Assembly (NCBI GenBank): GCA_015178975.1 | Contig: WHVD01000072.1 | Location: 248,001 to 312,000, forward strand | Length of the DNA stretch: 64,000 nucleotides | Source of the DNA: Hysterangium stoloniferum | Lineage: Eukaryota > Basidiomycota > Agaricomycetes > Hysterangiales > Hysterangiaceae | Reading direction: 5' to 3' | In this document: piece after piece, positions 23,922-63,297 of the stretch | How positions within the stretch are numbered: position 1 is the stretch's first letter | Layout of the letters: the number at the start of each line of letters is the position of its first letter | The notes under the pieces: generated by a model | Databases searched by the model: none | What the model was told of the DNA's origin: nothing | Seen by the model: only the letters and a program-made list of their open reading frames with translations | Translations under genes and position numbers: made by a program

Positions 23922-24762
23922 TGTTATGACCGGAAATCCCGCCAGACTCTGGGTACTAACTTATACGCACCCACGCCCTATACGCACCCATTATCAGTTT
24001 ACCGGAATTCCCACTGGACTCCGTATGTCAGACTCGTCTACATTCGTCTTCATTACGTTGTGTTTCAGTCACCAGAAAACCCACCGGACTCCGTCTCTGT
24101 CTATTTCCGACCTCGTCCCATGCATCAGTCACTGGACCCTGCTCAGAATACCTGTCTTCCCTCTAACCGAGCCCCGTTCCCATTTTAGTCAAATGACCTG
24201 TCACGATTCAGACTCCACTCCCACTCTGTTTCCCATTATGGTTTATGATTTGTCACTATTCGGACTCCACTCCATTCTGTCCTGTTCCTAACACCAATTT
24301 GGTGTTTACTATTCCCATTTTATGTTTTGCTCATTTCGTTTCATTATTACTGGATTCGGTATGACATTTACTCCACAGTCTATTTAAACTGGCAGATGTT
24401 GTACATACAATCCAGTCAGAAAATCGGCTTAGATTCCCCCAGTAATCTAATACATTTTCTGCTCTAAAACCCTACTTGATTCACACCACTCGCACTAGTT
24501 GGAGCCCACGGGCTCTGGCATATCTATCTCTCTCACCAGTCTCAACTCACGACCCACGACCTCTGACTTACGACTCACAACCCACGACCTCCGACTTATG
24601 ACTCACAACCCACAACCCCCGCCCGGACTCCTCGGGATTCCCGTCCGCCTGTCTGAAATTGGACGACACAATCTAGTGAGGGTGCAGCCTATAAGCTGAA
24701 GCCAAGTCCTACTGGATATTCCACGGGTTTCTCTGGAGACCCACCCTGTATGTATCCTAACA
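23922..24762 (+). mobile_element. Solo LTR, Gypsy-A family
   Basis: An 841-bp LTR beginning TGTTATGACCGG and ending TATCCTAACA, with flanks GTACT and GTGCT as a 5-bp target duplication carrying one change. It sits inside an older LTR in the opposite orientation. A TATTTAAA promoter-like box lies at about 24383. A degenerate GACCCACGACCTC-type minisatellite near the 3' part explains length differences among LTRs of this family. Confidence 0.85.
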
Positions 24763-25269
24763 GTGCTCATGGGTGGGTCTCCAGGGGAAACCCATGGAAG
24801 TTCTGGGGAAGGACTTGGTTTCAGCTTATGTTCTGTGTCCTCACAAGATTGCATTGTCTGACTTCAGACAGGAGTGGATGGGAAACCCATGGGTTCCAAG
24901 AATATGCCGAGGCAAATACTAAGTCAAAGCTAAGTTGATTTTCTGATCAGATTGTAAGTACAGACAGTAGCTAGACTATATAGACTAGTAGATTATTGGA
25001 CTACATATCCAGAGAGACAAAAAGACATAACAGGCATACAATAAGACAATAAACCAGATGTCAAATGGGCAAAGATGGATTGGGAACAATGGGTCTGGAA
25101 TGTCCAGGTGGAGTCCAGTGGCTGGTTCGTATGATATAGTTTAAGGCTGAAGTCCCAAAAAGGTCCTAGAACTTGTTAAGGTTTGTTGGTTAAATGTATG
25201 TGTCAAGATGTCAGGTGATCTGGAAGGTAAGGTTCAAATGTGAGGAGCCTATATAAAAATTGAAAATAA

Positions 25270-31708: not shown

Positions 31709-32040
31709 TGTAAGGGGACAAGTCATGCACACTTTATTTTCCCCAGATTAGTACCCCCCAGACTATGCCTTATTGTCTATTCCATTTTATTACCTCCCCA
31801 TAACAGGACATCTTATTCTTTATAGGGTACATTGAACTGATGTAAGAGGGCGCTTAAGGCGTGGGAAAATACACTGCGTGCTGTATAGCTGACGTGTTAC
31901 ACCTGGTAGAGTTTCCTTAGACTTTTCTCTTTGGATTTCCTCTACTAGGTGAGTAGATAGTTATCTTGTATTTAGTCATTTATATATACCTTTGGATTTC
32001 CTCTACTAGTGTGATATCCACTCTTAGAGTTGCCCTTACA
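31709..32040 (+). repeat. Gypsy-2 5' LTR
   Basis: TGTAAGGGGACAAG to TTGCCCTTACA, 332 bp. It contains a direct repeat of TTTGGATTTCCTCTACTAG. Confidence 0.95.
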
Positions 32041-35000
32041 GTAGAAAAGTCTCACAATCTTCGAGAACTGGCCGCGATTTTATTACAGGTATTAGACAGA
32101 ATAAAATCACGACCCCTCCTCACACCCTTACTTCATTCAACTCACTTTTGGGATGTCTCTGCCTCCAGAGCTCGAGCAACGCTTACAGGGCATGGAACAG
32201 AATGCCCAAGACAACATCAAGGCTCTCATGGACCTTATCACCCAACTTCAACTCACCATCAGCAATCTCGCCAACTCTACATCCTCCTCTTCCTCAGCTG
32301 CACCTGCTACCCTCCCTCTACACCCAATTGCCCAGCCTACACCATCTGTCGATTCGTCGGCTCGGTCGACACGTCACCCGAAAGGTTCGAAACCGAGCGA
32401 CTTTGATGGTAATAGAGACAGTGGCCATAACTTCCTACACTCATGCTACACCTACATGATGCTATGCCCCGAAGACTTCGTGGATGACAACACGCGTATT
32501 CTTTGGGTCTTGACCTTAATGAAAACCGGTCGAGCTGCAACTTGGGCAAGTGAGGCCATCCTGCGACACCACGCTAAAGGTGTTATGTTCACGGACTGGG
32601 GCGACTTTCAGACCCAATTCGAAGCAGAATTCTACCCGCAGTTTGAACAGGAGGCCGCCGCCAGTTGACTCAATTCCACAGCATATTTTCAGGGTACCAG
32701 GCATATTGACCTTTACATCTACGAATTTCGAGAAATGGCGCATAAGGCGGAGTACACCGGTGCCCCCGCGGTCATGGCGTTCAGAGCAGGTCTGAACTGC
32801 AGCGTCAAGTGACAAGTCACGACCATGACGGTCGGTCGACCAGGCAATGGCGACCTCGACGGCTGGTTTGAGACTGTGCACATCGCAGTGCAAGTGCAGA
32901 TGGCCAGCGACACTTTCCAGCAGTCGCTCCAGCATCAAAACTTACCTTCGAGAACACCAGTCATTTTGTCGACGACCGGATTGCATTTGCACTCGATCCC
33001 CACACCCCCTCGCGTCAACTATGCACCACCGCCAGGGCCGCCCCCCGGACCTCCCTTCCAAACACCATCAATGCAATGGGGATCTGCAGTGGGAATCGTG
33101 CCTATGGAAGTGGACCGGACTCGTCGGACCCAGCAACGCATCCCTCTCAATACCTGTCGTAGGTGTGGACAGGTGGGTCATTGGGCACGCGATTGTCCAG
33201 AGATTAGGGAAATCCTCCGTTTCCTAGCAGAAGACCCAGACGACCTGTCAGCCTTCACACAAGATATATTGGCATTAGAGGATGCAGGCCATATTTCCAA
33301 TATGGACAAGGAGTCACCCCCATTGGGACAGTCGGTGGAACAGGGTTTTCCCCCCAGCAACGAGTGAAGGATGCGCCCTCGTTGCTTATTCATGACCAAC
33401 TTCACAGTGTAATGATAGATAAGATAGAGCCCCAATACACTCCTCCTACTCATGCTGAAACTGTGAAACCAATAGTCGTATCTAATCTCCCAAAACCCTA
33501 CCTCCGTCTCCCGAAGTGGGAGCGGAGATTGCCACCCACTTACATCATATGTTCAACCCTCTCGACCAATTCCTTGTCCTTGCCGATTCAGATTCAGGCA
33601 ACAGACACTGCTGAGATCCATGCCCTGAGTGCTCTTTTAGATTGTGGTGCTACAGGACTATTCATTGACAGAGACTTTGTTAAAAGGAAGCACCTCACCA
33701 CTTGTTCCCTCATTCGTCCAATTCCAGTCCTCAATGTTGATGGCACTCACAATGAGGCAGGTGCTATCATGGAAGTAGTTGACCTCATCCTGCGTTATAA
33801 AGATCATTATGAGCATGCTGTCTTTGCAGTCACTAGTTTGGGTCACCACAATATGCTTCTTGGATTCACCTGGCTGCGACAGCACAACCCAGAGGTAGAT
33901 TGGTCAACAGGCAAGGTCACCATGAGTCGATGCCCATCCCAATGCCGGACTTGCCAACAAGAGTTAAAGGAAGAGCATCGAGCAGCTGCAAGACTTCGGG
34001 CCTGTCGTACTGGGCCATTACCGATACCCATCACTCCTATAGAAGATGACTCAATAATGGAGGGAGAGGTAGAAGAAGATACTGAACTCTGAGAGGATGG
34101 GGACTGCATTTGGGTGGCCTCACTTCCCCCAGAAGAAGAGTTTATTCGTGCAAGTACTACCACCTCTCAGCGTCTTGCAGAGGCATTTCATCGTAATTCC
34201 CAACCAATGACTCCAGGTAAAGGATCAGTACAAGATCAAATTCCTGTATACCTGCATGAATATGTGGACATCTTTTCCAAGGCCACCTTTGACAGACTTC
34301 CTGAACAGAAAGCCTGGGACCATGCCATTGAACTGGTACCAGATGCCAAACCTTCATCTTGCAAGGTGTACCCTTTAGCTCCAAATGAACAGGCAGAGCT
34401 TGATGCCTTCCTTCAAGAGAACCTATCCACAGGCCGTATCTGACCCTCAAAGTCACCCATGGCTTCCCCAATGTTCTTTATTAAGAAAAAGGATGGGTCC
34501 CTTCGTTTAGTACAGGATTATCGTGTTCTCAATGCTGTCACTATCAAGAATCAATACCCCCTTCCTTTGATCTCTGACCTTATCAATCAGCTATGTGGAG
34601 CTCGCTATTTCACCAAATTAGATGTACGATGGGGCTATAACAATGTGAGGATCAAGGAAGGGGATGAATGGAAAGCAGCCTTTCGCACCAACCGGGGATT
34701 GTTTGAACCCCTTGTTATGTTTTTCGGACTCACCAATAGCCCCTCCACCTTCCAGACGATGATGAATGACATTTTCCATGACCTCATCATGGAGGGTGTA
34801 GTGGTCATTTATCTGGATGACATTTTGATATTCACCAAAACACTGCAAGAGCACTACCGTGTGTCACATCTAGTCATGCAACGGCTATGCCAGCATAAAC
34901 TCTACCTCAGGCCAGAGAAGTGTGAATTTGAGAAGACCAAGATTGAATACTTGGGACTCATTATCTCAGAGGGTCAGGTGGAGATGGATCCGATCAAAGT

Positions 35001-37278
35001 GGCTGGTGTAGCAGAATGGCCAACCCCAGGTAGCCGTAAGGAAGTACAGTCCTTCCTGGGGTTTGCCAACTTCTACCGACGCTTCATCAAGGACTTCTCC
35101 CACCATGCACGTCCCCTGTTTGATCTCACCAAAAAGGATCAGCCTTGGAAGTGGGGCAAGGAGGAAGTGGGTGCCTTTCACACTCTCAAGCATCTAGTGA
35201 CTTCAGCACCAGTTCTTGCCTTTGCGAAAGACAACCTTCCATACCGTATTGAGGCTGACAGTTCAGACTTTGCCACAGAGGCAGTACTGTCTCAGCAGTC
35301 ACAGGAGGATGGCAAGTGGCATCCCATTGCATTCTACTCCAAAAGCCTCAATGAGGTGGAACACAATTATGATATTCATGATAAGGAGATGCTGGTTATC
35401 ATCTGGGCACTGGAAGAGTGGCGTCACTTTGTAGAAGGTGCTGAGCATAAGTTTGAGATTTGGACAGACCATAAGAACCTGGAATACTTTCACACATCCA
35501 AGAAGGTGAACCGGAGGCAAGCCAGATGGTCACTTTATTTGGCATGGTTTGACTTTGAGATGCATCATCGTCCAGGAGCCTCTATGGGAAAATCAGATGC
35601 TCTATCCAGATGTGCTGACCATGGTTCTGGTGCAGAAGACAATAAGGATAGGGTACTCCTCCAACCAGAATTATTTGCTATTCGAGCATTAGAAGGGATG
35701 GAGGTTTATGGTGAAGAACGGGACATCCTGAAGGATGTCCGGGAAGGCTTGAAGGAGTCAACCCCAGAAGATGCAGTGGCAAATGCCGTTCAGAAGATGC
35801 GCAAGACTAAAAGCAGGTCTATACAGTCCTCAGAGTGGTCAGAATCAGAGGGCCTACTCCTGTTTTGTGGGAAGGTATATGTTCCAGACCACTTGGATCT
35901 CCGCCGCCGCATTATGGCCCAACATCATGATACCAAGGTAACAGGCCACCCAGGCAGGTGGACGACCTTAGAACTCATTTCCAGGAATTACTGGTGGCCC
36001 CAAATGTCCAGACATGTAGGACTCTATGCCAAGACTTGTGATGTGTGTTTGCGGACCAAGACCATCTGGCATAAACCTATGGGTCAGCTGCAGCCATTGC
36101 CAATCCCCAGTCAACGCTGGGAAGTGGTCAGTGTAGACTTTATTACGGAATTGCCAGAGGCCCATGGTTTCGATGCAATTATGAATGTGGTTGACTCACT
36201 CTCTAAACGGGCTCACTTCATCCCTACCATGACCACATTGTCAGCAGCAGGTGCAGCATGTCTTTTCCTACAGCATGTCTGGAAACTACATGGCTTGCCA
36301 ATGAAGGTGGTTTCTGACCGTGGCTCACAGTTTGTGGCAGAATTCACCAAGGAACTCTACTGCTTGCTGGGCATCAAGATAGCCTCCTCTACTGCCTATC
36401 ATCCTCAGACATATGGACAGACAGAACGTCTCAACATGGAACTAGAACAATACATACGGGTGTTCACAAATGAGCAGCAGGATGATTGGGATGAATTGCT
36501 TCCCTTAGCAGAGTTCCAATACAATAACCACATCCATTCTTCCACACAACACACACCCTTCATGGTTGACACTGGTCGTCATCCGTGCATGGGTTTTGAA
36601 CCACATCAGGTGCCATCCAGATTGGAATCTGTGAATGAACTTAAGGAGCGTATGGCAGATGCACTACAGGAAGCTCGGGCTGCCTTGCAGAAATCAAAGG
36701 ATGACATGGCGAGATACTATAACTGACGATGGGAACCCACTCCAGTCTATCATCCAGGAGATAAGGTGTTTTTGGATGCGAGTAATCTAGCAACTACCCG
36801 ACCATCAGCCAAACTGGCACACCAGCGTTTGGGCCCTTTCATGGTAGAAAGGGCAGTAGGCACACATGCCTATCGACTGCGTTTACCTCAAAAGCTCAAG
36901 CATTTACACCCAGTTTTCCCTGTTGTTAAACTCATGCTTGCTCCAGTGGACCTATTTCCAGGCCGTCCTAAGCCCTACCAACCCCCCCCAGATCTTGTAG
37001 GTAACCAAGAGGAATATGAGGTGGAGGAGGTCCTTGATAGCAGGATGCACTACAGGAAGTTCCAGTATCTTATCAAATGGAGAGGTTATGGCTATGAGGA
37101 AAATGAGTGGGTGGATGCCAAGGATGTTCATGCACCAGAACTTGTCACTGAGTTTCATCGACTACACTCAGGTGCACCCAGACCCATTCAGGAGAAAGAC
37201 TTTGCCATTTTCAGGGACCCCAAGTTGAGGTTGGATAACACTCGTGTGTCGGGGCGCCACACCTAGATGGGGGGGTGA

Positions 37279-37610
37279 TGTAAGGGGACAAGTCATGCAC
37301 ACTTTATTTTCCCCAGATTAGTACCCCCCAGACTATGCCTTATTGTCTATTCCATTTTATTACCTCCCCATAACAGGACATCTTATTCTTTATAGGGTAC
37401 ATTGAACTGATGTAAGAGGGCGCTTAAGGCGTGGGAAAATACACTGCATGCTGTATAGCTGACGTGTCACACCTGGTAGAGTTTCCTTAGACTTTTCTCT
37501 TTGGATTTCCTCTACTAGGTGAGTAGATAGTTATCTTGTATTTAGTCATTTATATATACCTTTGGATTTCCTCTACTAGTGTGATATCCACTCTTAGAGT
37601 TGCCCTTACA
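37279..37610 (+). repeat. Gypsy-2 3' LTR
   Basis: Same length as the 5' LTR, with two transitions. It is preceded by GATGGGGGGGTGA. Confidence 0.95.
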
Positions 37611-40960: not shown

Positions 40961-41249
40961 TGTTACAACCCATTCCTGGATGTTTCAATATCCGACTTCC
41001 AACTTCCAACTTCTGACTACAGACCATAATAGTTATAGTTACCGTATCTTCCGTATTCTTCCCTTGTTCTGCATTTGGTAATTTGTCTGTTGACAAGTAT
41101 TCACTCGTTTGTTTATTATATTCCCATTTCAGAATATTGTCTCCCTAATTCATCTTATTGTATTCCTGTTTCAGAATACTTCCATTTCCATCTTATTGTG
41201 ATCTTAGTTTGTAGTACAATAACGAGAAGACTTATATTAGTTTCCGTCC
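40961..41249 (+). mobile_element. LTR-B fragment within Gypsy-A
   Basis: Starts TGTTACAACCCATTCC. It matches the LTR at 62797 through CTTGTCTGTTGACAAGTAT and ACTTATATTAGTTT, and then returns to Gypsy-A reverse transcriptase. It lacks the LTR 3' third. Confidence 0.7.
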
Positions 41250-41979: not shown

Positions 41980-42789
41980 TGTTAGGATAGGTACAGGGCG
42001 GGTCTCCGGAGAAACCCGTGGAATATCTGGTAGGACTTGGCTTCAGCTTATAGGCTGCACCCTCGCTAGATCATGTTGTCCAATTTCAGACAGGCGGACA
42101 GGAATCCCGGTGAGTCTGGGTGGGGGTTGTGGGTCGTGAGTCGTAAGTTGGAGGTCATGGGTTGTGAGTCGAGACTGGTGAGAGAGATAGATACGCTGGA
42201 GCCCGTGGGCTCCAACTAGTGCGAGCGGTTTGAATCAAGTAGGGTTTTAGAGCAGAAAATGTATTAGATTACGGGGGGAATCTAAGCCGATTTTCTGACT
42301 GGATTGTACAACATCTGCCAGTTTAAATAGACCGTGGAGTAAATGTCATACCGAATCCAGTAATAATGAAACGAAGCGAGCAAAACATAAAACGGGAATA
42401 GTAAACACCAAATTGGTGTTAGGAACAGGATGGAACAGAGTGGAGTCCAAATTGTGACAAAGCATAACCCATAACGGGAAATGGAGCGGGAGCAGAGTCC
42501 AAAATCATGACAGGTCATTTGACTAAAACGGGAATGGGGCTCAATTAGAGTGGTGACGGGATTCTGAGCGGGGTCCAGTGACTGATGCGTGGGATGAAGA
42601 TGGACATAGAACAGAGACGGAGTCCGGGGAACTCCGGTGACTGATATGTGTCATAATGAGGTTGAACGTAACAAGTCTTGACGTACGGAGTCTGGGTGGG
42701 AAATCCTATAAACAGACAATTGGTGCGTGTATGGTGTGGTGGCATACAGGTTAGTGCCCAGAGTCCGGCGGGATTGTCCAGTCGTAACA
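41980..42789 (-). mobile_element. Solo LTR, Gypsy-A family
   Basis: An 810-bp LTR in opposite orientation to the host element, with TSD GAAGG on both sides (41975-41979 and 42790-42794). It interrupts the RNase H region of the outer copy. Confidence 0.9.
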
Positions 42790-43686: not shown

Positions 43687-44496
43687 TGTTAGGGTACATA
43701 CATGGCAGGTTTCCAGAGAAACCCACAGATTATCTGGTAGGACTTGGCTTCAGCTTATAGGCTGTGCCCTCGCGAGATCGTGTTGTCCAATTTCAGACAG
43801 GTGGACGGGAATCCTGGGGAGTCTGGGCAGGGGTCGTAGGTCAGAGGTCGTGGGTCAAGAGGTCATGAGTCAAGATTGGTAAGAGAGTTAGATGCGCTGG
43901 AGCCCGTGGGCTCTGACTAGTGTGAGCGGTGTAATTCAAGTAGGAGTTTAGAGCAGAAAATGTATTAGATTACTGGGGGGAATCTAAGCCAATTTTCTGA
44001 CTGGATTGTATGTACAACATCTGCCAGTTTAAATAGACCATGGAGTGAATGACATACCAAATCCAGTAATGATGAAACAAAACTAGCAAAACATAAAACA
44101 GGAATAGTAAACACCAAATTTGGTGTTAGGAACGGGACAGAACGGAGCAGAGTCCAAATCATGACAAATCATAAACCATAATGGGAAACGGAGCGGGAGC
44201 AGAGTCTGAATCGTGACAGGTCATTTGACTAAAATGGGAACGGGGCTCTGTTAGAGGGATGATGGGTTTTACGAGTGGGGTCCAGTGACTGACGTGTGGG
44301 ACGAGGTCGAACATAGACAGGGACAGAGTCCAGTGGGTTTTCCGGTGACTGAAACACAATGTAACGAAGATGAATGTAGACAAGTCTGACATATGGAGTC
44401 CAGGTGGGAATTCTGATGAACTGACAATGGGTGCGTATAGGGTGCGGGTGTGTATAAGTTAGTGCCTGGAGTCGGGCGGGATTTCCAGTCGTAACA
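43687..44496 (-). repeat. Inner Gypsy-A 3' LTR
   Basis: 810 bp, TGTTAGGGTACATA to CAGTCGTAACA as read on the plus strand. Confidence 0.9.
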
Positions 44497-50318: not shown

Positions 50319-51155
50319 TGTTAGGGTATTACACGGTGGGTTTCCGGAGAAACCTGCAGATTATCCAGTAGGACTTGGCTTCAGCTTATAGGCTGCACCC
50401 TCGTGAGATCGTGTTGTCCAATTTCAGACAGGCAGACGGGAATCCCGGGGAGTCTGGGTGGGGGTCATGGGTCGAGGGGTCATAGGTCGGAGGTCGTGGT
50501 CGAGAGGTCATGAGTCGAGAGGTCATGAGTCGAGATTGGTAAGAGAGTTAAATGCGCTGGAGCCCGTGGGCTCCGACTAGTGTGAGTGGTGTAATTCAAG
50601 TAGGAGTTTAGCGTGGAAAATGTATTAGATTACTGGGGGGAATCTAAGCCAATTTTCTGACTGGATTGTATGTACAACATCTGCCAGTTTAAATAGACTG
50701 TGGAGTGAATGACATACCAAATCCAGTAATGATGAAACAAAACTAGCAAAACATAAAACAGGAATAGTAAACACCAAATTTGGTGTTAGGAATGGGACGG
50801 AATGGAGTGGAGTCCAAATCATGACAAATCATAAACCATAACGGGAAATGGAGCGGGAGTGGAGTCCAAATTGTGACAGGTCATTTGACTAAAATGGGAA
50901 TGGGGCTCTGTTAGAGGGATGATGGGTTTTACAAGCGGGGTCCAGTGACTGATGTGCGGAACGAGGTCGGACATAGACAGGGACAGAGTCCAGTGGGTTT
51001 TCCGGTGACTGAAACACAATGTAATGAAGATGAATGTAGACAAGTCTGACGTACGGAGTCTGGTGGGAATTCCAGTGAACTGACAATGGGTGCGTATAGG
51101 GTGTGGGTGTGTATAAGTTAGTGCCTGGAGTCTGGTGGGATTTCCGGTCGTAACA
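50319..51155 (-). repeat. Inner Gypsy-A 5' LTR
   Basis: 837 bp. It is longer than the 3' LTR mainly through extra GGTCATGAGTCGAGA-type minisatellite units near 50480-50530. Confidence 0.9.
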
Positions 51156-52826: not shown

Positions 52827-52920
52827 AAGAATACGGAAGATACGGTAAATATGATGGTCCGTAGTTGGAAGTCGGAAGTCAGAAGTCAGATATTGAAACA
52901 TCCAGGAACAGGTCGTAACA
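52827..52920 (-). mobile_element. Inverted LTR-B scrap
   Basis: Reads TGTTACGACCTGTTCC from 52920 downward and matches the first ~95 bp of the LTR-B copy at 40961, including TACCGTATCTTCCGTATTCT. Confidence 0.7.
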
Positions 52921-53163
52921 ACTGGCTTCCACCCCACAAAGAGTATGAAAAAATCAACCTCAGCGAGTGCACACAAAGGTGGAGAGTGGGACTCCCAATG
53001 ATTGAATTTTGTGTGAAAATGCACTATAGGGGTTGTATGGCATATGTACAGCAGCAGGTGTTATTAGAATGAAAAAGGGAGGTGGATGCAAGGCACTGAA
53101 AGTGCAGGAGCTCAGACACAGACATGGACACACATGAGTGAGATGAAGATTCACCAGGGTTTA

Positions 53164-53720
53164 ACTATGGACCCACGGTAGTACACAACATGTATCTCGT
53201 GTGCCAAGTCATAAAATCTAACAGACCAATCAATCGCCTAGTAAGCCTCAGGCATTGTTGAGGATGCGGAGCAACAGCGACGTGTCATCGGAGGCAATCA
53301 ATAAGTGAAAAGCTTACATATAATCTGATATGGATCATCTGTAGCAGCTAAGAACTTCGGGAATCTCATTCGAAGATCCCTTTGGATGCTTGTGTGGATA
53401 ATAGTTGGTTGCACGCCGTGGTGGGAAGCTAGATCGAATATCTTCTCACCATGCCTGGGGTTTTCCTTTCAGAAGGTGAAGTTATTCATGTCACCATATG
53501 GTGATCTCCGGCGATAACATTACTTTGCGTCCTCCAGATCACTAATCATGCCAAACCAATTTTATTCATGAATAATCACCGTGGTATTATAACTTGAACA
53601 TTAGGCTGATAAACTGGTCTTCCCAGCACATGTATGACCCTGCGTCTTCCTCTGAATGCGAACGCGCTGAACGTAGCATGTCGGCCTCTCGGTTGTGAAT
53701 AAGCTCCAGGATTATCCAGA
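53164..53720 (-). repeat. Outer 0.5-kb terminal unit, left arm
   Basis: Diverged inverted copy (roughly 70-80% by eye) of 56060-56588. Shared blocks include GGTGATCTCCGGCGATAACATTACTTTGCGTCC, split here as GGTGATCTCC then TTACTTTGCGTCC, and AGTAAGCCTC. It includes a scrap of the zinc-finger gene's 3' end. Confidence 0.75.
53593..53708 (-). pseudogene. Fragment of the zinc-finger gene 3' end
   Basis: On the minus strand it reads READMLRSARSHSEEDAG, a stop codon, then YMCWEDQFIILMF. This parallels READILRAARLLSEEDAS and YLCWEDHFITLMF at the end of the intact gene. It is a diverged, truncated duplicate inside the terminal unit and unlikely to be expressed as protein. Confidence 0.75.
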
Positions 53721-53733
53721 GTTGGAGATATGC

Positions 53734-54039
53734 CTAAAAGCACCATCCGGAGAGGTTAAATTCATTTAGGGTGTCTTTAAAGGCCGACACTTCCGCAATA
53801 TAACTGTCCAAGGTGATTAGAGACTGAATTAAGGTGTAGAGAATGAAGAGAACGGCGAAAACATGGTATGGTATGCATGTCAGGTAATGAGAGGAAGTTT
53901 TATATTCCCAGAAATAATTATAGCGGGGGGAGGGGGGCCTCCGGTAAGCGGCGAGTAGAATCAAGATTGATTGGAGAACAGTAAAGCAGGATGTAACAAG
54001 GTTTGATGGTAAGGCAGCTCTTCTCATCGTTAGGTACAT
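53734..54039 (-). CDS. Two-helix membrane protein, 101 residues (left copy)
   Basis: An intronless ATG-started frame. Predicted helices lie at about residues 13-32 (VTSCFTVLQSILILLAAY) and 55-76 (CIPYHVFAVLFILYTLIQSL). They are separated by a Pro/Arg/aromatic loop (RRPPSPRYNYFWEYK), and the tail is polar and acidic. There is no cleavable signal peptide beyond the first helix. The protein is identical to the copy at 60100-60405; the DNA has at least one synonymous change (third base of the Cys100 codon), which suggests separate, maintained copies. It is divergent from the zinc-finger gene with about 600 bp between starts, so the two may share a promoter. No family recognised; it could also be one exon of a larger gene. 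Confidence 0.55.
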   Translation of the reverse strand: MYLTMRRAALPSNLVTSCFTVLQSILILLAAYRRPPSPRYNYFWEYKTSSHYLTCIPYHVFAVLFILYTLIQSLITLDSYIAEVSAFKDTLNEFNLSGWCF

Positions 54040-54646
54040 TGAGATGTATACATTATTATGGCTAAGCTAATAAGTCCCAGTGATAGCGATCATGGTAAAG
54101 AAACAAAAATAATGTCATGCGGCGATCGGTGAAAAGGTTGATTTTTGGAAATCGATGGTGGGACTGTCAGGTGAAGCATTTGCAATGGGGGGGCACTGCG
54201 GCGCTGAGAAGCATTTTATGCGTATTCATTGAGGATACAACGGTGTGCATGGCCATAGTTTCAGACTCTCAGATGTATTGGTCCCCTAGTATTCGACTGC
54301 ACTAGTTTCTACCCCCAAGCGACTCTGTGGTGACTTATTGCTGTAAAGGCATTTAACAAAACAAATGTTTCGAATGTTTTGATGCCATGCGAGTTTTATG
54401 TAATGTTACATAAATGCATCGACCGTCGAATGATCGACGTCGAAGATAATTTCACGATGAATAATGAACAAAGCTTGTAATTTGATTCATTGGTGACTAA
54501 GAGGTGACTGTTTTGAGCAGTTTGCCACATCGATTCCAAGCGCTTCTAAAGTTGTAGAGACTCGCTTAACGTGATTTAGGCTAGTAAGGTTCCGGGCGGG
54601 GATCCGCTTCTAAGCCTTTTCCCCCCATCTGTGAACACTACCCCCA
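54040..54646. promoter_or_regulatory. Shared upstream region of the divergent pair (left)
   Basis: Lies between the divergent starts. It contains the perfect palindrome TCGACGTCGA (54434-54443) with a CRE-like GACGTC core, and ATGTTACAT at about 54402-54410. A 62-codon frame (54117-54305) is also present unchanged in the other arm, but I do not treat it as a gene. Confidence 0.35.
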
Positions 54647-56184
54647 ATGTCCATTCACACGAATAGCGAATCTCAGTGCGTTGACATACTTGTACCTTCA
54701 AGTCCTTTACTCATTTTTCGCCTTAGTGATAATTATCTAGAGGCAGACGTTGATCCTTGTCAACTACCTAGGGAATTCAGCACTCCGAATGTCGAAAGGT
54801 AAGACACTGACCTCAAATATTGTTAGTATTTATTGACAGCTACAATCTCGGTGCTAGTGCGGACACCCAAGGATCCCCGACAGACTGTGGACAGAGGGCT
54901 CTTATCGCCGCCGAAGAGCCTATCAGCCCCCGAATCTGTACGTTCCTTCAGCATCGCCTGTCCTTATATTGAACCGTGTATTCTATTCCCTTCTACGATT
55001 TGACAGTGGTACATTGGATGGTCGTCACGGGACGAAACTTAACTCGCCTCGCCTCTCAACTACTCGCCCACGCTTTTTTCTCGCTGAGAATTCTGACAGC
55101 GACGAGAGTCCGGCCCAACCTTCAGTCAGACGCAAGAAGGTGAGTGTTTTTATGCATCTTATACATGGAAACTCAAGCCATTCTCTGTAGATTATCCTCG
55201 CAGGACCTCCCACCAACACTCCTCGTTTGATTCGGAATCGCCCACAGTTACCATGGGCATCACTCGTTGAAAGAATTTCAAAATATCAAGATCCACTGAT
55301 GGTGTAAGTTCAAAACACTATAGTGTTGTATAGTGCGTATTGAATGTAAAGGTTATTAGGGATAAGCTCACCGACTTTGATTTTGATGTGGAAATCGCGG
55401 ACTGGGGAGAGATCTGCACTGCATTGGAAATGATGAAACCAATGTGTAGAGCCTCTCCTTCCAATTCCAGTCTCACATATGACGGGGAGACCGAAACGTG
55501 AGTGCAATAATTATATTAATCTAATTGGCTGACTTCCTTCTTTGATGGCATGCTAGAACTCCCCGACCGCTAACAAATGATATTCAAAATGAGTACCTGG
55601 AGGAAAATATCACTTCCAGGCCCCGCCTTGAAACATTGACAAGGGCGAGGGAGCTGGGTGCACTCTCAGAAGCAAATATAGGTTCCGCCACAACATCATC
55701 CTCATTTCCCCTTGCACCAATCCCCAACCGATCCATCCGGTCAGAATCCTTTGGCGGTTTCAAAATGCCTGACTTAAGGTGCATCCGTCTCATCCAAGGG
55801 GACCTGGAACAAGACCAATGCTTATTTGGCCGTCAAAACTCACAAGTGAACACCATGCATCACTGGTTGGCCAGACACCTCTTCAGTCGTGAAAGCGATG
55901 TAAATATGGGTTTGTCTCATAAACAATTAGCCCACATTTACGGCTCATTGTTGAGATGTCCGGAAGAAAACTGTCCCCAACAAGGTGGATTCTTGTGGAA
56001 AGAAAATTTCCTAGTCCATATGTGGATGCACAAAGCGGAACTACTGCCCTGTCAGTCAGTGGAGGCCATTGAAAGGCGAGAGGCTGACATACTACGTGCG
56101 GCGCGCTTGCTCTCAGAGGAGGACGCAAGTTTCTACTTGTGTTGGGAAGACCATTTTATTACTCTAATGTTCACGCTATTATAG
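54647..56184 (+). CDS. Six-exon C2H2-like zinc-finger protein gene (left copy, possible 1-nt frame defect)
   Basis: Exons: 54647-54798, 54840-54937, 55007-55139, 55191-55303, 55360-55497 and 55557-56184. Introns of 41, 69, 51, 56 and 59 nt are all GT-AG (GTAAGA, GTACGT, GTGAGT, GTAAGT, GTGAGT). All phases match except across exon 2, where a C run (54927-54931) has five Cs against six in the right copy. So this copy is frameshifted in exon 2, or the run is a sequencing error. Otherwise the protein equals the right copy described at 57954-59492. An AATAAA signal follows at 56202, and the stop codon lies within the palindrome CACGCTATTATAGCGTG. Orientation is divergent from the membrane-protein gene. 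Confidence 0.6.
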
Positions 56185-56588
56185 CGTGCTGATTATCCTT
56201 TAATAAACCTGGTTTTAGCATTATTAGTGATCTGTAGGACGCAAAGTAATGATGTCATCGGAGATCACCCTCTGGTGACGTGGCAAACTAAACCAAAACA
56301 CCGTTCTTGCTGAGAAGAGATTGGATCGGGCTTTCTCTCCAACTATTATGCCCACAAATATCCGAAAGTGATTTTCGAAGTGACGCCACCTAATTGAATG
56401 ACTTCTATGACAGATCATCCACATAAGCATCGTATTTAATGATCGTCCCCGATAAAACATCGCTATTGCTCCGCGCCCCATGAAACGCCAAGATGGTTGA
56501 TTTGGGTACCTGATTATTCCAAGGTGATCTGGATGCGGAGGAAGTAAGATTAGCCTGCTTCAACGTTATTCGACGTCAATTGGTCTAC
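56060..56588 (+). repeat. Inner 0.5-kb terminal unit, left arm
   Basis: Covers the last coding part of the zinc-finger gene and about 400 bp downstream. It is the inverted relative of 53164-53720 and mirrors 57536-58078 with about 10% difference beyond the gene end, including a small indel near 56340. Confidence 0.75.
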
Positions 56589-57109
56589 GTCATACCCCTA
56601 ACACTTGTGTTATCCACATTTGACAGCACCCTCTCCTACCTCTTATGTACGTGCATCCCAACAACAAGAGTTACTGTGAATCAAAGAAGGGCTCTCCCCA
56701 TATTCTTCTCTACTCCCAACATGGAGGCATATGCCAATTACGTCCAAGCTGGCTTTCACTCCCAAATAACTCGGTGCTCTATGTTGGGGGACGCCATGGG
56801 ACAAAGCCACGGACGATTCAAGATAGAAAACGATTCTTCCAATGTGATGGGAGGGGTAAAGTCATGGAATCAAGAATGTTCTGGATGTTCATTTTTTCGT
56901 TGGTTGTGACTTATACCCTTGTGAAATGTTCCGAATATTTCTGGTACTCCTGCATGTGACAGCTTGTTTATTTTGACTAAGACTCCGATGTATGACAGGT
57001 TCTGGCGTTAGCAAGTTGGTAGGAGTGATTATCTGCGAATGTGGCTCCTGCTAAAACATATTATAGCTATTCATGCGTGCACTAGTTGTTACATCGGTAA
57101 TCCCCCATG
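56589..57109. other. Spacer of the inverted repeat, left part
   Basis: Unique sequence between the arms. An ATG-started frame at 56645-56959 (104 codons) ends in a hydrophobic segment (RMFWMFIFSLVVTYTLV). An overlapping frame at 56580-56909 lacks an ATG at its 5' end. Neither is recognisable, and coding status is uncertain. Confidence 0.3.
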
Positions 57110-57435
57110 TCTCCTTTCACACACAAGTGATGGATGGGTGGTCAGTGTGATCAACAGTTGAGGTCTGGATTGAAAGTGGAGAAAAATCTGAGACAGTAAT
57201 TGATTGCAGATGACCACATTGATCCTGAGCAACAGCAGACTGAAGATGGTTATTAATGCTCCATGGAATACTGATTGTCCTCATCAGCTTTGGAGGCTCA
57301 ACCAATGAAGTTGGCAGACAAAGTAGGAGCTAGCACAGTCTATTAAAGGTATAGAAAAGAAGTGACCAAACCTGAGATTGAACCAAGGCTATATATGCCA
57401 GTGCTCTTAACCACTGAGCAACTGGAACTATGGTC
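57110..57435 (-). mobile_element. tRNA-derived SINE-like element
   Basis: On the minus strand, a tRNA-like head carries an A box GTTGCTCAGTGG (57422-57411) and a B box GGTTCAATCTC (57384-57374). Between them is a GGC-ATATATA-GCC stem and seven-base loop like an anticodon arm. The head is followed by about 250 bp of unrelated sequence rich in CAATC and CCATC motifs. The head does not fold as a clean tRNA because of extra bases at its 5' side, so a SINE is a better call than a tRNA gene. No clear target duplication or A-tail was found, and the 3' limit is approximate. Confidence 0.65.
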
Positions 57436-57490
57436 CAGTGTTATATTATGGATAATACTGTATATATAGGTCTTCTCATGGCAACCTGGC

Positions 57491-57537
57491 AGGTTTCTAC
57501 TTTTGCTGGGAAGACCATTTTATTACTCTAATGTTCA
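57491..57537 (+). repeat. 47-bp scrap of the zinc-finger gene end
   Basis: TTTCTACTT followed by GGGAAGACCATTTTATTAC and TCTAATGTTCAC duplicates 56130-56174 in direct orientation, and runs straight into the first bases of the right arm. It is a sign of an earlier rearrangement at the inner junction. Confidence 0.7.
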
Positions 57538-57953
57538 CGTAGACCAATTGACGAAGCAGGCTAATCTTTACTTCATCCGCATCCAGATCACCTTGGAATG
57601 ACCAGGTACCCAAATAAATCACCCAGTAAGCCTCCGGCGTTTCAAAGGACGCGGAGTAATGGCGACGTTTCATCGGGGACGATCATTAAATGCGATGCGG
57701 ATGGGGATGATCTGTCATAGAAGTCACTTAATTAGGTGGCCTCAGGTCGAAAATCACTTTCGGATGTTTGTGGGCATAATTGTTAGTTCTACACTGGGGG
57801 GAGAAAGCCAGATCCAATCTCTTCTCAACAAGCACGGTGTTTTGGTTTAGTTTGCCACGTCACCAGAGGGTGATCTCCGATGACATCATTACTTTGCGTC
57901 CTACAGATCACTAATAATGCTAAAACCAGGTTTATTAAAGGATAATCAGCACG

Positions 57954-59492
57954 CTATAATAGCGTGAACATTAGAGTAATAAAATGGTCTTCCCAACACA
58001 AGTAGAAACTTGCGTCCTCCTCTGAGAGCAAGCGCGCCGCACGTAGTATGTCAGCCTCTCGCCTTTCAATGGCCTCCACTGACTGACAGGGCAGTAGTTC
58101 CGCTTTGTGCATCCACATATGGACTAGGAAATTTTCTTTCCACAAGAATCCACCTTGTTGGGGACAGTTTTCTTCCGGACATCTCAACAATGAGCCGTAA
58201 ATGTGGGCTAATTGTTTATGAGACAAACCCATATTTACATCGCTTTCACGACTGAAGAGGTGTCTGGCCAACCAGTGATGCATGGTGTTCACTTGTGAGT
58301 TTTGACGGCCAAATAAGCATTGGTCTTGTTCCAGGTCCCCTTGGATGAGACGGATGCACCTTAAGTCAGGCATTTTGAAACCGCCAAAGGATTCTGACCG
58401 GATGGATCGGTTGGGGATTGGTGCAAGGGGAAATGAGGATGATGTTGTGGCGGAACCTATATTTGCTTCTGAGAGTGCACCCAGCTCCCTCGCCCTTGTC
58501 AATGTTTCAAGGCGGGGCCTGGAAGTGATATTTTCCTCCAGGTACTCATTTTGAATATCATTTGTTAGCGGTCGGGGAGTTCTAGCATGCCATCAAAGAA
58601 GGAAGTCAGCCAATTAGATTAATATAATTATTGCACTCACGTTTCGGTCTCCCCGTCATATGTGAGACTGGAATTGGAAGGAGAGGCTCTACACATTGGT
58701 TTCATCATTTCCAATGCAGTGCAGATCTCTCCCCAGTCCGCGATTTCCACATCAAAATCAAAGTCGGTGAGCTTATCCCTAATAACCTTTACATTCAATA
58801 CGCACTATACAACACTATAGTGTTTTGAACTTACACCATCAGTGGATCTTGATATTTTGAAATTCTTTCAACGAGTGATGCCCATGGTAACTGTGGGCGA
58901 TTCCGAATCAAACGAGGAGTGTTGGTGGGAGGTCCTGCGAGGATAATCTACAGAGAATGGCTTGAGTTTCCATGTATAAGATGCATAAAAACACTCACCT
59001 TCTTGCGTCTGACTGAAGGTTGGGCCGGACTCTCGTCGCTGTCAGAATTCTCAGCGAGAAAAAAGCGTGGGCGAGTAGTTGAGAGGCGAGGCGAGTTAAG
59101 TTTCGTCCCGTGACGACCATCCAATGTACCACTGTCAAATCGTAGAAGGGAATAGAATACACGGTTCAATATAAGGACAGGCGATGCTGAAGGAACGTAC
59201 AGATTCGGGGGGCTGATAGGCTCTTCGGCGGCGATAAGAGCCCTCTGTCCACAGTCTGTCGGGGATCCTTGGGTGTCCGCACTAGCACCGAGATTGTAGC
59301 TGTCAATAAATACTAACAATATTTGAGGTCAGTGTCTTACCTTTCGACATTCGGAGTGCTGAATTCCCTAGGTAGTTGACAAGGATCAACGTCTGCCTCT
59401 AGATAATTATCACTAAGGCGAAAAATGAGTAAAGGACTTGAAGGTACAAGTATGTCAACGCACTGAGATTCGCTATTCGTGTGAATGGACAT
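57954..59492 (-). CDS. Six-exon C2H2-like zinc-finger protein, 420 residues (right copy, intact)
   Basis: Exons on minus: 59492-59341, 59299-59201, 59131-58999, 58947-58835, 58778-58641 and 58581-57954. All five GT-AG introns and all phases agree. The start ATG (59492) heads an open stretch through exon 1. Features: a Ser/Asp-rich segment (AENSDSDESP) then basic RRKK at about 125-128, a possible nuclear signal; an acidic aromatic segment (DFDFDVEIADWGEICTAL) in exon 5; and a C2H2-like finger with C346, C351, H366 and H370 (C-x4-C-x14-H-x3-H) around GGFLWKENFLVHMWMH, which resembles the fungal FxRKDNLxxH finger core. A helical READILRAARLLSEEDA tail follows. Probably a nuclear protein; DNA-binding is inference. 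The frame is intact here, unlike the left copy. It is not recognised as a named family. The splice model rests on sequence alone. Confidence 0.72.
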
Positions 59493-60099
59493 TGGGGGTA
59501 GTGTTCACAGATGGGGGGAAAAGGCTTAGAAGCGGATCCCCGCCCGGAACCTTACTAGCCTAAATCACGTTAAGCGAGTCTCTACAACTTTAGAAGCGCT
59601 TGGAATCGATGTGGCAAACTGCTCAAAACAGTCACCTCTTAGTCACCAATGAATCAAATTACAAGCTTTGTTCATTATTCATCGTGAAATTATCTTCGAC
59701 GTCGATCATTCGACGGTCGATGCATTTATGTAACATTACATAAAACTCGCATGGCATCAAAACATTCGAAACATTTGTTTTGTTAAATGCCTTTACAGCA
59801 ATAAGTCACCACAGAGTCGCTTGGGGGTAGAAACTAGTGCAGTCGAATACTAGGGGACCAATACATCTGAGAGTCTGAAACTATGGCCATGCACACCGTT
59901 GTATCCTCAATGAATACGCATAAAATGCTTCTCAGCGCCGCAGTGCCCCCCCATTGCAAATGCTTCACCTGACAGTCCCACCATCGATTTCCAAAAATCA
60001 ACCTTTTCACCGATCGCCGCATGACATTATTTTTGTTTCTTTACCATGATCGCTATCACTGGGACTTATTAGCTTAGCCATAATAATGTATACATCTCA
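59493..60099. promoter_or_regulatory. Shared upstream region of the divergent pair (right)
   Basis: Mirror of 54040-54646, with the TCGACGTCGA palindrome at 59696-59705. Near-perfect conservation of this noncoding stretch between arms matches that of the genes, as expected from homogenisation rather than protein-level selection alone. Confidence 0.35.
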
Positions 60100-60405
60100 A
60101 TGTACCTAACGATGAGAAGAGCTGCCTTACCATCAAACCTTGTTACATCCTGCTTTACTGTTCTCCAATCAATCTTGATTCTACTCGCCGCTTACCGGAG
60201 GCCCCCCTCCCCCCGCTATAATTATTTCTGGGAATATAAAACTTCCTCTCATTACCTGACATGCATACCATACCATGTTTTCGCCGTTCTCTTCATTCTC
60301 TACACCTTAATTCAGTCTCTAATCACCTTGGACAGTTATATTGCGGAAGTGTCGGCCTTTAAAGACACCCTAAATGAATTTAACCTCTCCGGATGGTGTT
60401 TTTAG
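60100..60405 (+). CDS. Two-helix membrane protein, 101 residues (right copy)
   Basis: Encodes the same protein as 53734-54039, with predicted helices at about residues 13-32 and 55-76 and a loop containing RRPPSPRYNYFWEY. It starts at an ATG with an in-frame stop upstream. It differs from the left copy by a synonymous TGT/TGC near the stop. Small size, two helices and strict conservation beside a zinc-finger gene give no direct function. It could be a membrane-acting accessory protein or an exon of an unrecognised gene. Confidence 0.55.
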   Translation: MYLTMRRAALPSNLVTSCFTVLQSILILLAAYRRPPSPRYNYFWEYKTSSHYLTCIPYHVFAVLFILYTLIQSLITLDSYIAEVSAFKDTLNEFNLSGWCF

Positions 60406-60418
60406 GCATATCTCCAAC

Positions 60419-60978
60419 TCTGGATAATCCTGGAGCTTATTCACAACCGAGAGGCCGACATGCTACGTTCAGCGCGCTCGCATTCAGAGGAAGACGCAGG
60501 GTAGTACATGTGCTGGGAAGACCAGTTTATCATCCTAATGTTCAAGCTATAAGACGACGGTGATTATTCATGAATAAAATTGGTTTGGCATGATTAGTGA
60601 TCTGATCTGGAGGACGGAAAGTAATGTTATCGCCGGAGATCACCATATGGTGACATGAATAACTTCACCTTCTGAAACGAAAACCCCAGGAATGGTAAGA
60701 AGATATTCGATCTAGCTTCCCACCACGGCGTGCAACCAACTATTATCCACACAAGCATCCAAAGGGATCTTCGAAGGAGGTTCCCGAAGTTCTTAGCTGC
60801 TACAGATGATCCATATCAGATTATATCTAAGCCTTTCACTTATTGATTGCCTCCGAGACACGTCGCTATTGCTCCGCGTCCCAACAATGCCTGAGGCTTA
60901 CTAGGCGATTGATTGGTCTGTTAGATTTTATGACTTGGCACACGAGATACATGTTGTGTACTACCGTGGGTCTATAGT
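60419..60978 (+). repeat. Outer 0.5-kb terminal unit, right arm
   Basis: Mirror of 53164-53720 with scattered substitutions and small indels, more than in the arm core. It is an inverted relative of the inner unit at 57536-58078. Confidence 0.75.
60431..60546 (+). pseudogene. Fragment of the zinc-finger gene 3' end (right)
   Basis: Counterpart of 53593-53708. It reads NREADMLRSARSHSEEDAG, a stop codon, then YMCWEDQFIILMF, and lies within the outer terminal unit of the right arm. Confidence 0.75.
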
Positions 60979-61144
60979 TACAGCTGTTCCGAGTATCTAA
61001 GGCGGAGTCCAAAGTTTAAAAAAAATTCCGCTTTCGACCTACAGACAAATTGTGCTGTATCTCAGGAAAGGGACCCAATTAAGACAAAATGATTTGGGGT
61101 GTGTACTATATAGTATAGGTCTATATATCTATGTATATAGTTGG

Positions 61145-61505
61145 CCTTATGAGATGCTATTTAATATTCAGTGAAATATCAGTCCAATGGCTCCCCTTCA
61201 TTCAATTCTCCCTCAATTTGCATATAAGCTGGTGGGACTAATACTATATATTGTGTATGAATATTCCCTTAGCTGTGAGGCTTAATACCATCATTTGAAC
61301 AAATTGTGCCACTTACTGTATGCACACTTGATAGTGAGTAGTATAACTTGTTCAAAAGGTAGTATTAGGCCTCACAACTCACATTATGTTTAGATACAAT
61401 ACATAGTATTAATTCCACCAGCTTATATGCAAATATAAGGAGAATTGAATGAAGGGGAACCATTGCAATGATATTTCACTGAATATTAAATAGCCTGTCA
61501 TAAGG
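61145..61505. mobile_element. Hairpin element nested in the TIR transposon
   Basis: About 361 bp forming a long imperfect palindrome: CCTTATGAGATGCTATTTAA with TTTAATATTCAGTGAAATATC on the left is mirrored on the right, as is CCCCTTCATTCAATTCTCC and AGCTGGTGG. Arms are about 165 bp around a centre near 61325. It is non-coding and resembles a foldback MITE. Confidence 0.75.
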
Positions 61506-61665
61506 AGGATGGTCACACTTTATTGAATATACAAAATTTTACTGAATAATCCTCATATTTTTAAGTGAGACTACTTCCTCTGGCCATGGCAACTTATTCT
61601 ATGAGTTTATATTTAATTACCTGAAATTTCATCTTTAAAATATGCATGCCCTTTTAAAATACACA

Positions 61666-61797
61666 AGATTATTTGTGTTAACCTACATTATTTGGGTTAA
61701 TCTAGACTATTTGGGTTAACCTAGATTATTTGGGTTAACCTAGATTATTTGGGTTAAACAAGATCATTTGGGTTATGACTTAATCTTTGGGTTATGA
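61666..61797 (+). repeat. 19-bp tandem repeat
   Basis: Units of TTATTTGGGTTAACCTAGA recur about six to seven times with decreasing fidelity to both sides. It lies inside the TIR transposon. Confidence 0.85.
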
Positions 61798-62430
61798 TGT
61801 ATTCTCTTGTACTTTCAAATATATTTCATATAATTTAAATTTAGTTGGTTTAGAGAGTTAACCAGAACTATCTGGGATACCAATCCCCATTGTTCAATTT
61901 ATTCCAAAAAAATAATCTACAGATGATTGTTTGACTAAATTTTGTCAGATATAGGATAAATATTAATATTTTTGCATTCTTCAGAGTGATACCTAATCAA
62001 CTGAATTTGATTAAATATTAATTTTACAACAAACAATATAAATATATATACTTTAGTGGATAAATAACTTTTAAAGTTTTGGGTTATCCTCCTAAGGCCA
62101 AATATATACATCCATATATAGATCCATACAATATCATACACATAGAATTTTATTATGTCTTAATTGCCACTGATTCTGGAGATATGGCACAATTTGTCTG
62201 TGGCAGGATTTTTTTTAAATTCTGAACTCCACCTTGGGTACTCAGAACAGCTGTAAACCCTGGTGAATCTTCATCTCACTCATGTGTGTCCATGTCTGTG
62301 TCTGAGCTCCTGCACTTTCAGTGCCTTGCATCCACCTCCCTTTTTCATTTTAATAACACCTGCTGTACATATTCCATACAACCCCTATAGTGCATTTTCA
62401 CACAAAATTCAATCATTGGGAGTAAATTTG

Positions 62431-62796: not shown

Positions 62797-63297
62797 TGTT
62801 ACAATCCATTCCTGGATATTTCAATCTTCTGATATAATTCCCACCTCCAGAACCTTATCAATTCCTGGACATTCTGAACTCTGTCCTTGTTCTGTATTTG
62901 GTAACTTGTCTGTTGACAAGTATACATTCATTTGTTTATTATGTTCCCAAATCAAAATCCCTATCCTAATCCCTCTTATTGTAATATCAGTTTGTAGTAC
63001 AATTATAAAAAGCCTATATTAGTTTTGCGCATTTTACTTACACCTTAGATCTTATCAACTTAGTTAGCTTATTCTTCTTTTCTTTCTGTACACTTGATAT
63101 TCAGAACTCTTCCAAATTCTGAATATCTGTCAACTCTCCAGCATAGATGGAACCTCTGAAATTAAGGACACCCAAGCATTTGCATAAGGGCACAGCATGT
63201 AAACTGAGGCCAAGTCCTGACCCTACTTGGAGGTATCCTGAGTTCCTGGTTATTTACTGATAGTTTCTGGGATAGGTTTCTGATACAGTCCTTAACA
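62797..63297 (+). mobile_element. LTR-B, about 501 bp, start of another Gypsy-like copy
   Basis: TGTTACAATCC to GTCCTTAACA. The first half matches the fragments at 40961 and 52827-52920. The last part resembles the Gypsy-A LTR end (a GGGCACAGC block followed by AAGTCCT), so LTR-B and Gypsy-A are related. It is followed by ATGGGTCCCAAATG at 63332, comparable to the Gypsy-A gag start. This is a fossil that continues with decayed sequence. Confidence 0.65.

Follow-up and report, generated by a model that had tools for sequence, protein, structure and literature searches.

A large inverted repeat in Hysterangium stoloniferum whose gene-bearing arms share a substitution-free core, probably through gene conversion

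The stretch of Hysterangium stoloniferum DNA considered here (assembly GCA_015178975.1, contig WHVD01000072.1, forward-strand positions 248,001 to 312,000; hereafter the window, 64,000 nucleotides numbered from its first letter) contains a palindrome, a large inverted repeat in which each arm holds a six-exon gene and, in divergent orientation, a short open reading frame (ORF) predicted to encode two membrane helices. BLAST of the window against itself placed the inverted arms at 52991-56590 and 57537-62423, with 52991-53163 matching 62254-62423 at 97.1% identity and 53162-56590 matching 57537-60980 at 97.3%. The left arm is 3600 bp long and the right arm 4887 bp, or 3612 bp once an insertion peculiar to it is set aside. 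Among the 40 longest repeat pairs listed for the window the palindrome is the longest, and it is the most alike of the pairs exceeding 400 bp. An initial annotation, made from the sequence alone, had described arms of about 3.6 kb around a spacer of about 950 bp; both are borne out, the spacer measuring 946 bp, and the position sums of 114138-114139 that it reported for paired bases hold over the two longest ungapped stretches. Two inverted arms separated by a short spacer are the layout of a palindrome homogenised by gene conversion.

52991-56590, + strand: left arm of the palindrome (self-BLAST).
57537-62423, - strand: right arm, 1275-bp insertion included (self-BLAST and arm alignment).
56591-57536, no strand: spacer of 946 bp, the interval between the arm ends.

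The larger of the two coding features was modeled in both arms as follows.

54647-56184, + strand: six-exon gene, left copy; exons 54647-54798, 54840-54937, 55007-55139, 55191-55301, 55352-55497 and 55557-56184; frameshift in exon 2.
57954-59492, - strand: six-exon gene, right copy; exons 59341-59492, 59201-59299, 58999-59131, 58837-58947, 58641-58786 and 57954-58581; open over 422 codons.

The introns are of the GT-AG type in both arms, so that the six-exon structure first proposed for each arm stands; the open frame does so in the right arm (422 amino acids) and fails in the left, where exon 2 has one C fewer in a homopolymer run, which breaks the frame. Being a matter of homopolymer length, this difference is possibly a sequencing error. 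Around the last exon the frame stays open for 212 codons; when the gene region was shuffled 1000 times, one shuffle contained a frame at least that long. A Pfam search with the 422-residue product gave no hit up to E = 10, the best hit among the sequences of the PDB (E 0.57) is unrelated, and NCBIfam holds no match for the last exon, for which AlphaFold2 run without an alignment returned a mean predicted local distance difference test score (pLDDT) of 36.5, too low for use. One scan each of two collections, neither of them fungal, produced no confirmed relative of the 211-residue last-exon frame among 13 pattern matches in viral_contigs and 70 in genome_contigs. The gene had been labeled a zinc-finger gene. 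A motif of the form C-x4-C-x14-H-x3-H can be read by eye at a single place in the product; the Pfam search of the 422 residues returned no zinc-finger profile of the kind expected for a C2H2 protein, and with the PDB sequences equally silent the label lacks support. A nuclear, nucleic-acid-binding role for the product would be a guess from one Cys/His motif.

The second feature is the two-helix ORF.

53734-54039, - strand: two-helix ORF, left copy; 101 amino acids from the first ATG; gene status uncertain.
60100-60405, + strand: two-helix ORF, right copy; 101 amino acids from the first ATG.

It was put forward as a membrane-protein gene, and the same 104 residues are indeed present in both arms, but its standing as a gene is less secure. 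Open frames of at least 104 codons turn up in 163 of 1000 mononucleotide shuffles of the region, so the length is not beyond chance; a frame of at least 95 codons with two hydrophobic segments arose in 4 of 2000 shuffled regions, by a test chosen after the ORF had been seen. AlphaFold2 without an alignment predicts helices only (mean pLDDT 67.9). Neither Pfam, searched up to E = 10 with the 101 residues from the ATG, nor NCBIfam gave a match, and we regard the ORF as a possible gene. The 110-residue open frame that contains it drew a SUR7/PalI hit (E 0.015) whose 15.4 bits fall short of the cut-off of 29.6, and we did not use it as evidence. We also discarded the idea that the ORF is a spliced paralogue of the six-exon gene, joined to a remnant C terminus described below: the + strand of 59500-60560 has no GT[A/G]NG donor (other donor forms were untried). 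At the DNA level, the reverse complement of the two-helix region showed no similarity to the gene (z 1.2). Pfam coverage of the palindrome as a whole extended to the last exon and to ten of the 19 open frames of at least 75 codons in 52990-62430; the frames outside these searches are their right-arm duplicates and six, three in each arm, on the strand opposite to the gene.

The differences between the arms fall in steps. With the 1275-bp insertion excluded, 745 sites could be aligned in the outer part (52991-53740), of which 21 carry substitutions, besides 4 gap events; the inner part (56305-56590) has 30 substitutions in 273 aligned sites, again with 4 gap events. Between them lies a core (53741-56304) whose 2564 aligned sites are free of substitutions; its one gap, of a single base, is the C5/C6 difference in exon 2 noted above.

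53741-56304, + strand: homogenised core, left copy; no substitutions and one single-base indel relative to the right copy.
57834-60398, - strand: homogenised core, right copy (arm alignment).

The contrast between core and outer part is significant by Fisher's test (p = 2e-14), as is that between inner and outer parts (p = 8e-7). At the outer rate a core without substitutions would have a probability of 4e-32, and core divergence has an approximate upper limit of 0.12% at the 95% level. The arms are thus far more alike over the core (0/2564) than over the adjoining duplicated sequence (21/745 and 30/273), as is expected of a conversion-homogenised palindrome. Core identity extends through five introns and the intergenic DNA, and since these are identical too, selection on the protein cannot explain it. 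The core starts inside the last codons of the two-helix ORF and stops 120 bp past the stop codon of the six-exon gene, and the tract therefore spans both; its match to the two ORFs may be a coincidence. Judged from the sequence, this stepped divergence, which went unnoticed in the initial annotation together with the older inverted copies discussed below, is what a recent gene-conversion tract inside an older inverted duplication would look like.

Palindromic chimeras are known artefacts of long-read sequencing, and the one difference within the core is a homopolymer length. A fold-back read or a collapsed repeat could therefore be suspected of having produced the second arm, but such an origin is barely credible for arms between which there are 51 substitutions, nine gap events and an insertion of 1275 bp, and whose outer flanks are different sequences. 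The insertion, present in the right arm opposite an empty site in the left, and the unequal flanking parts show that the arms are separate sequences.

60981-62255, no strand: insertion of 1275 bp resembling a miniature inverted-repeat transposable element, right arm only; ends inverted (~175 bp, 74%), TA on each side, left arm an empty site.

An older layer underlies the palindrome. The outer and inner ends of each arm form an imperfect inverted repeat of their own and match at 70-72%; compared across arms, outer and inner ends are 68-71% identical. The repeated sequence consists of the 3' end of the six-exon gene and some 300 bp past the stop codon.

53228-53691, - strand: outer-left copy of the gene 3' end and downstream DNA (older paralogue); in-frame 40-residue C terminus at 53590-53709.
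60448-60914, + strand: outer-right copy of the gene 3' end and downstream DNA; 40-codon frame at 60430-60549 with one stop.
56077-56480, + strand: 3' end of the gene and downstream DNA on the inner left, matching the outer-left copy in inverted orientation.
57613-58061, - strand: 3' end of the gene and downstream DNA on the inner right, matching the outer-right copy in inverted orientation.
57489-57539, + strand: piece of the gene's last codons, 51 bp long and with 94% identity to it, where spacer and right arm meet.

Over the last 40 codons the outer copies retain 65% amino-acid identity to the gene, the left one open and the right one with a single stop. Differences between the outer-left remnant and the gene number 7, 7 and 15 at the first, second and third codon positions, and the ratio of nonsynonymous to synonymous substitution rates (dN/dS) is 0.34; for the outer-right remnant, with its stop, it is 0.46. 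After the split the outer copy probably remained coding for a while, although 40 codons are little to judge by. At the spacer/right-arm junction the 51-bp fragment and the arm end have CGT in common. Spacer positions 56645-56851 align with the gene's protein at E 0.002 when the query omits exon 2 and, in another alignment, at E 0.024 with the full 422-residue query; a fused query of 79 residues scored 32.0 bits against the spacer, the maximum in 300 shuffles being 26.2. Comparison of spacer and gene as DNA revealed no similarity (z -0.7), and we do not assert a third, decayed copy of the gene there. Because inverted 3'-end copies stand at the arm ends (68-72%) and a 94% fragment lies at the spacer, one gene appears to have been duplicated repeatedly, and we infer that copies from one gene family lie clustered here in inverted orientation, the most recent of the large duplications having produced the palindrome.

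Inverted copies of one sequence bordering each arm, in a neighborhood rich in retroelement pieces, also bring transposons to mind. Two elements with terminal inverted repeats (TIRs) might have inserted head to head, the repeats being about 450 bp long and including the 3' end of the gene. We consider this unlikely. Arm identity continues for 237 bp past the outer repeat and for 76-110 bp past the inner one, the repeats have, by eye, no common sharp terminus, and inspection of the outer ends (52991/62423), by eye only, disclosed no target-site duplication. There is no further copy of the unit within the window. The palindrome ORFs searched contain no transposase domain, although the six antisense frames of at least 75 codons lay outside that search and a non-autonomous element would lack such a domain as well.

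It seems likely to us that the palindrome goes back to a segmental duplication, in inverted orientation, that took in a small gene locus of a repeat-rich genome, and that it behaves as a conversion-homogenised gene pair. At this locus the gene family would have undergone two or more inverted duplications, the arms would then have diverged, and ectopic recombination would later have copied about 2.6 kb from one arm into the other, leaving the flanking parts untouched. Pairing within a chromatid should be easy, because the arms are inverted and only 0.95 kb apart; a break in one of two such closely spaced arms could be repaired from the other, with the result that a tract is copied. Each gene copy could in this way act as a repair template for its partner, events resolved as crossovers would flip the spacer only, and the outcome would be concerted evolution of the gene pair. 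The mechanism we propose draws on the divergence pattern and on established knowledge of ectopic recombination.

Five points weigh against this proposal: (i) the left gene copy is frameshifted, so there are not two working copies unless the C-run is a sequencing error; (ii) the number of differences in the inner part varies with the alignment, MAFFT at a different setting giving 38 mismatches in 56300-56599 as against 30/273; (iii) if the assembly was built from short reads, near-identical cores may have been merged and their identity overstated; (iv) conversion is deduced from a step in divergence in one genome and one pair of arms rather than from a tree of strains or species; and (v) the steps differ in height (2.8% versus 11%), which calls for a further, older event or for different local rates. 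A related account would have the center of one arm replaced once, very recently, with no continuing homogenisation. One sharply bounded tract accounts for the core no less well than a series of small events would, yet such a replacement amounts to one long conversion and differs from the proposal, with which it overlaps, in the number of events only; the unequal divergence of the inner and outer parts suggests more than one, and we find a solitary event distinctly unlikely. Of the earlier suggestion of a conversion-maintained pair, conversion is upheld by the contrast of 0/2564 with 2.8% and 11%; repeated conversion, which "maintained" implies, is indistinguishable from one recent event on the evidence of one genome.

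The gene palindromes kept by conversion that are best known lie on mammalian sex chromosomes and are far larger than the present locus; the worked fungal example that we found is the flip/flop inverted repeat of Saccharomyces. On the mammalian Y and X, gene-bearing inverted arms are kept near-identical by arm-to-arm gene conversion (PMC3723533, PMC8981503). The principle would be the same here; identity in H. stoloniferum, by contrast, is confined to the 2.6-kb core. In flip/flop, 4.2-kb arms carry the Centroid genes YNL018C/YNL034W and the transmembrane-protein genes YNL019C/YNL033W; the Centroid genes are lineage-restricted and fast-evolving, the arms have become homogenised, for which the authors suggest gene conversion, and three strains have a mobile element in one arm (PMC9731477). 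Flip/flop is a close analogue and the closest described one that we found, and the assertion in the initial annotation that no fungal locus of this form had been described was too strong. The two appear to have in common an inverted repeat of about 4 kb in which every arm bears a lineage-restricted, fast-evolving gene and a gene for a transmembrane protein, together with homogenised arms and a mobile element in one arm. The likeness is one of arrangement. The yeast arms flank and flip 24 kb with 15 genes, whereas the spacer here is 946 bp and there is no large invertible interior; the older nested inverted copy of the gene's 3' end in each arm is a further difference. Among the matches listed in a literature search that left most subscription journals outside its coverage, no account was recognisable as this locus.

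The analogy invites the thought of a selfish or drive cassette, in which the six-exon product and a small membrane protein would have been duplicated and homogenised for their own transmission, an idea compatible with the homogenised gene pair we propose. The lack of a recognisable family, the inverted pairing, the apparent concerted evolution and the small hydrophobic ORF recall fungal drive families. We nevertheless hold it to be highly improbable: neither product reaches a Pfam cut-off (driver genes were not compared directly), the two-helix membrane ORF may not be a gene, and for Centroid, the closest analogue, the authors' test for meiotic drive gave no support (PMC9731477). Mating-type loci offer another comparison. 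In a study of Cryptococcus, divergent duplicated pheromone genes at these loci are proposed, "if confirmed," to serve as conversion-repair templates (PMC12510652). Basidiomycete genes, inverted orientation and a proposed repair-template role are shared with our locus; conversion is only proposed there, and here the palindrome ORFs searched include no mating-type domain, with no Pfam match to a homeodomain pair or to pheromone/receptor genes (short pheromone precursors were not looked for). The possibilities raised at the outset of an amplification unit, a mating-type-like locus or a selfish locus gained no support, there being no Pfam match above cut-off in the ORFs searched and no target-site duplication visible at the outer ends.

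One might go further and speculate that the palindrome is a basidiomycete counterpart of flip/flop, in which an unrelated lineage-restricted gene and a small membrane-protein gene became palindromic independently and are held identical by conversion across just the two ORFs. We offer this as a doubtful suggestion. If true, it would suggest that concerted evolution of two-gene cassettes is recurrent in fungi and perhaps that it has a sexual or conflict-related function. A second fungal case, with an older inverted duplication of the same gene nested inside it, would help to ask why lineage-restricted genes enter homogenised inverted pairs, and stepped divergence is a concrete signature that can be searched for in other fungal assemblies.

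The 1275-bp insertion in the right arm, with its inverted ends and flanking TA, is presumably of the type left by Tc1/mariner-type elements. A second hairpin lies within it at 61145-61505 (80-83%), part of which has an Rfam microRNA match of 71.4 bits, below the gathering score of 230, and a 19-bp tandem repeat of 5.8 copies occupies 61666-61775. In the spacer, the minus strand of 57341-57450 looked by eye like the tRNA-like head of a short interspersed element; a scan with the familiar A- and B-box patterns found five A-box-like matches and no B box within 2 substitutions, and we abandoned the assignment. Outside the arms, a dispersed repeat flanks the palindrome in inverted orientation at 52827-52920 and 62797-62983; a stretch of 95 bp at 52827-52921 has its inverted partner near 62797-62896 (z 8.4, 50 shuffles). 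The repeat was not counted as part of the palindrome, being dispersed, with a third copy at 40961-41162 that the two pieces match at 82% and 72%. The window also carries pieces of Copia- and Gypsy-type retroelements. One Gypsy-type element, at 31709-37610, has direct 332-bp repeats at 31709-32040 and 37279-37610 that are 99.4% alike and are probably a young pair of long terminal repeats (LTRs) around reverse-transcriptase and integrase frames. A repeat of about 840 bp, probably representing the LTRs of older Gypsy elements, occurs in four copies that are 81-89% alike, at 23922-24764, 41980-42789, 43687-44496 and 50319-51155.

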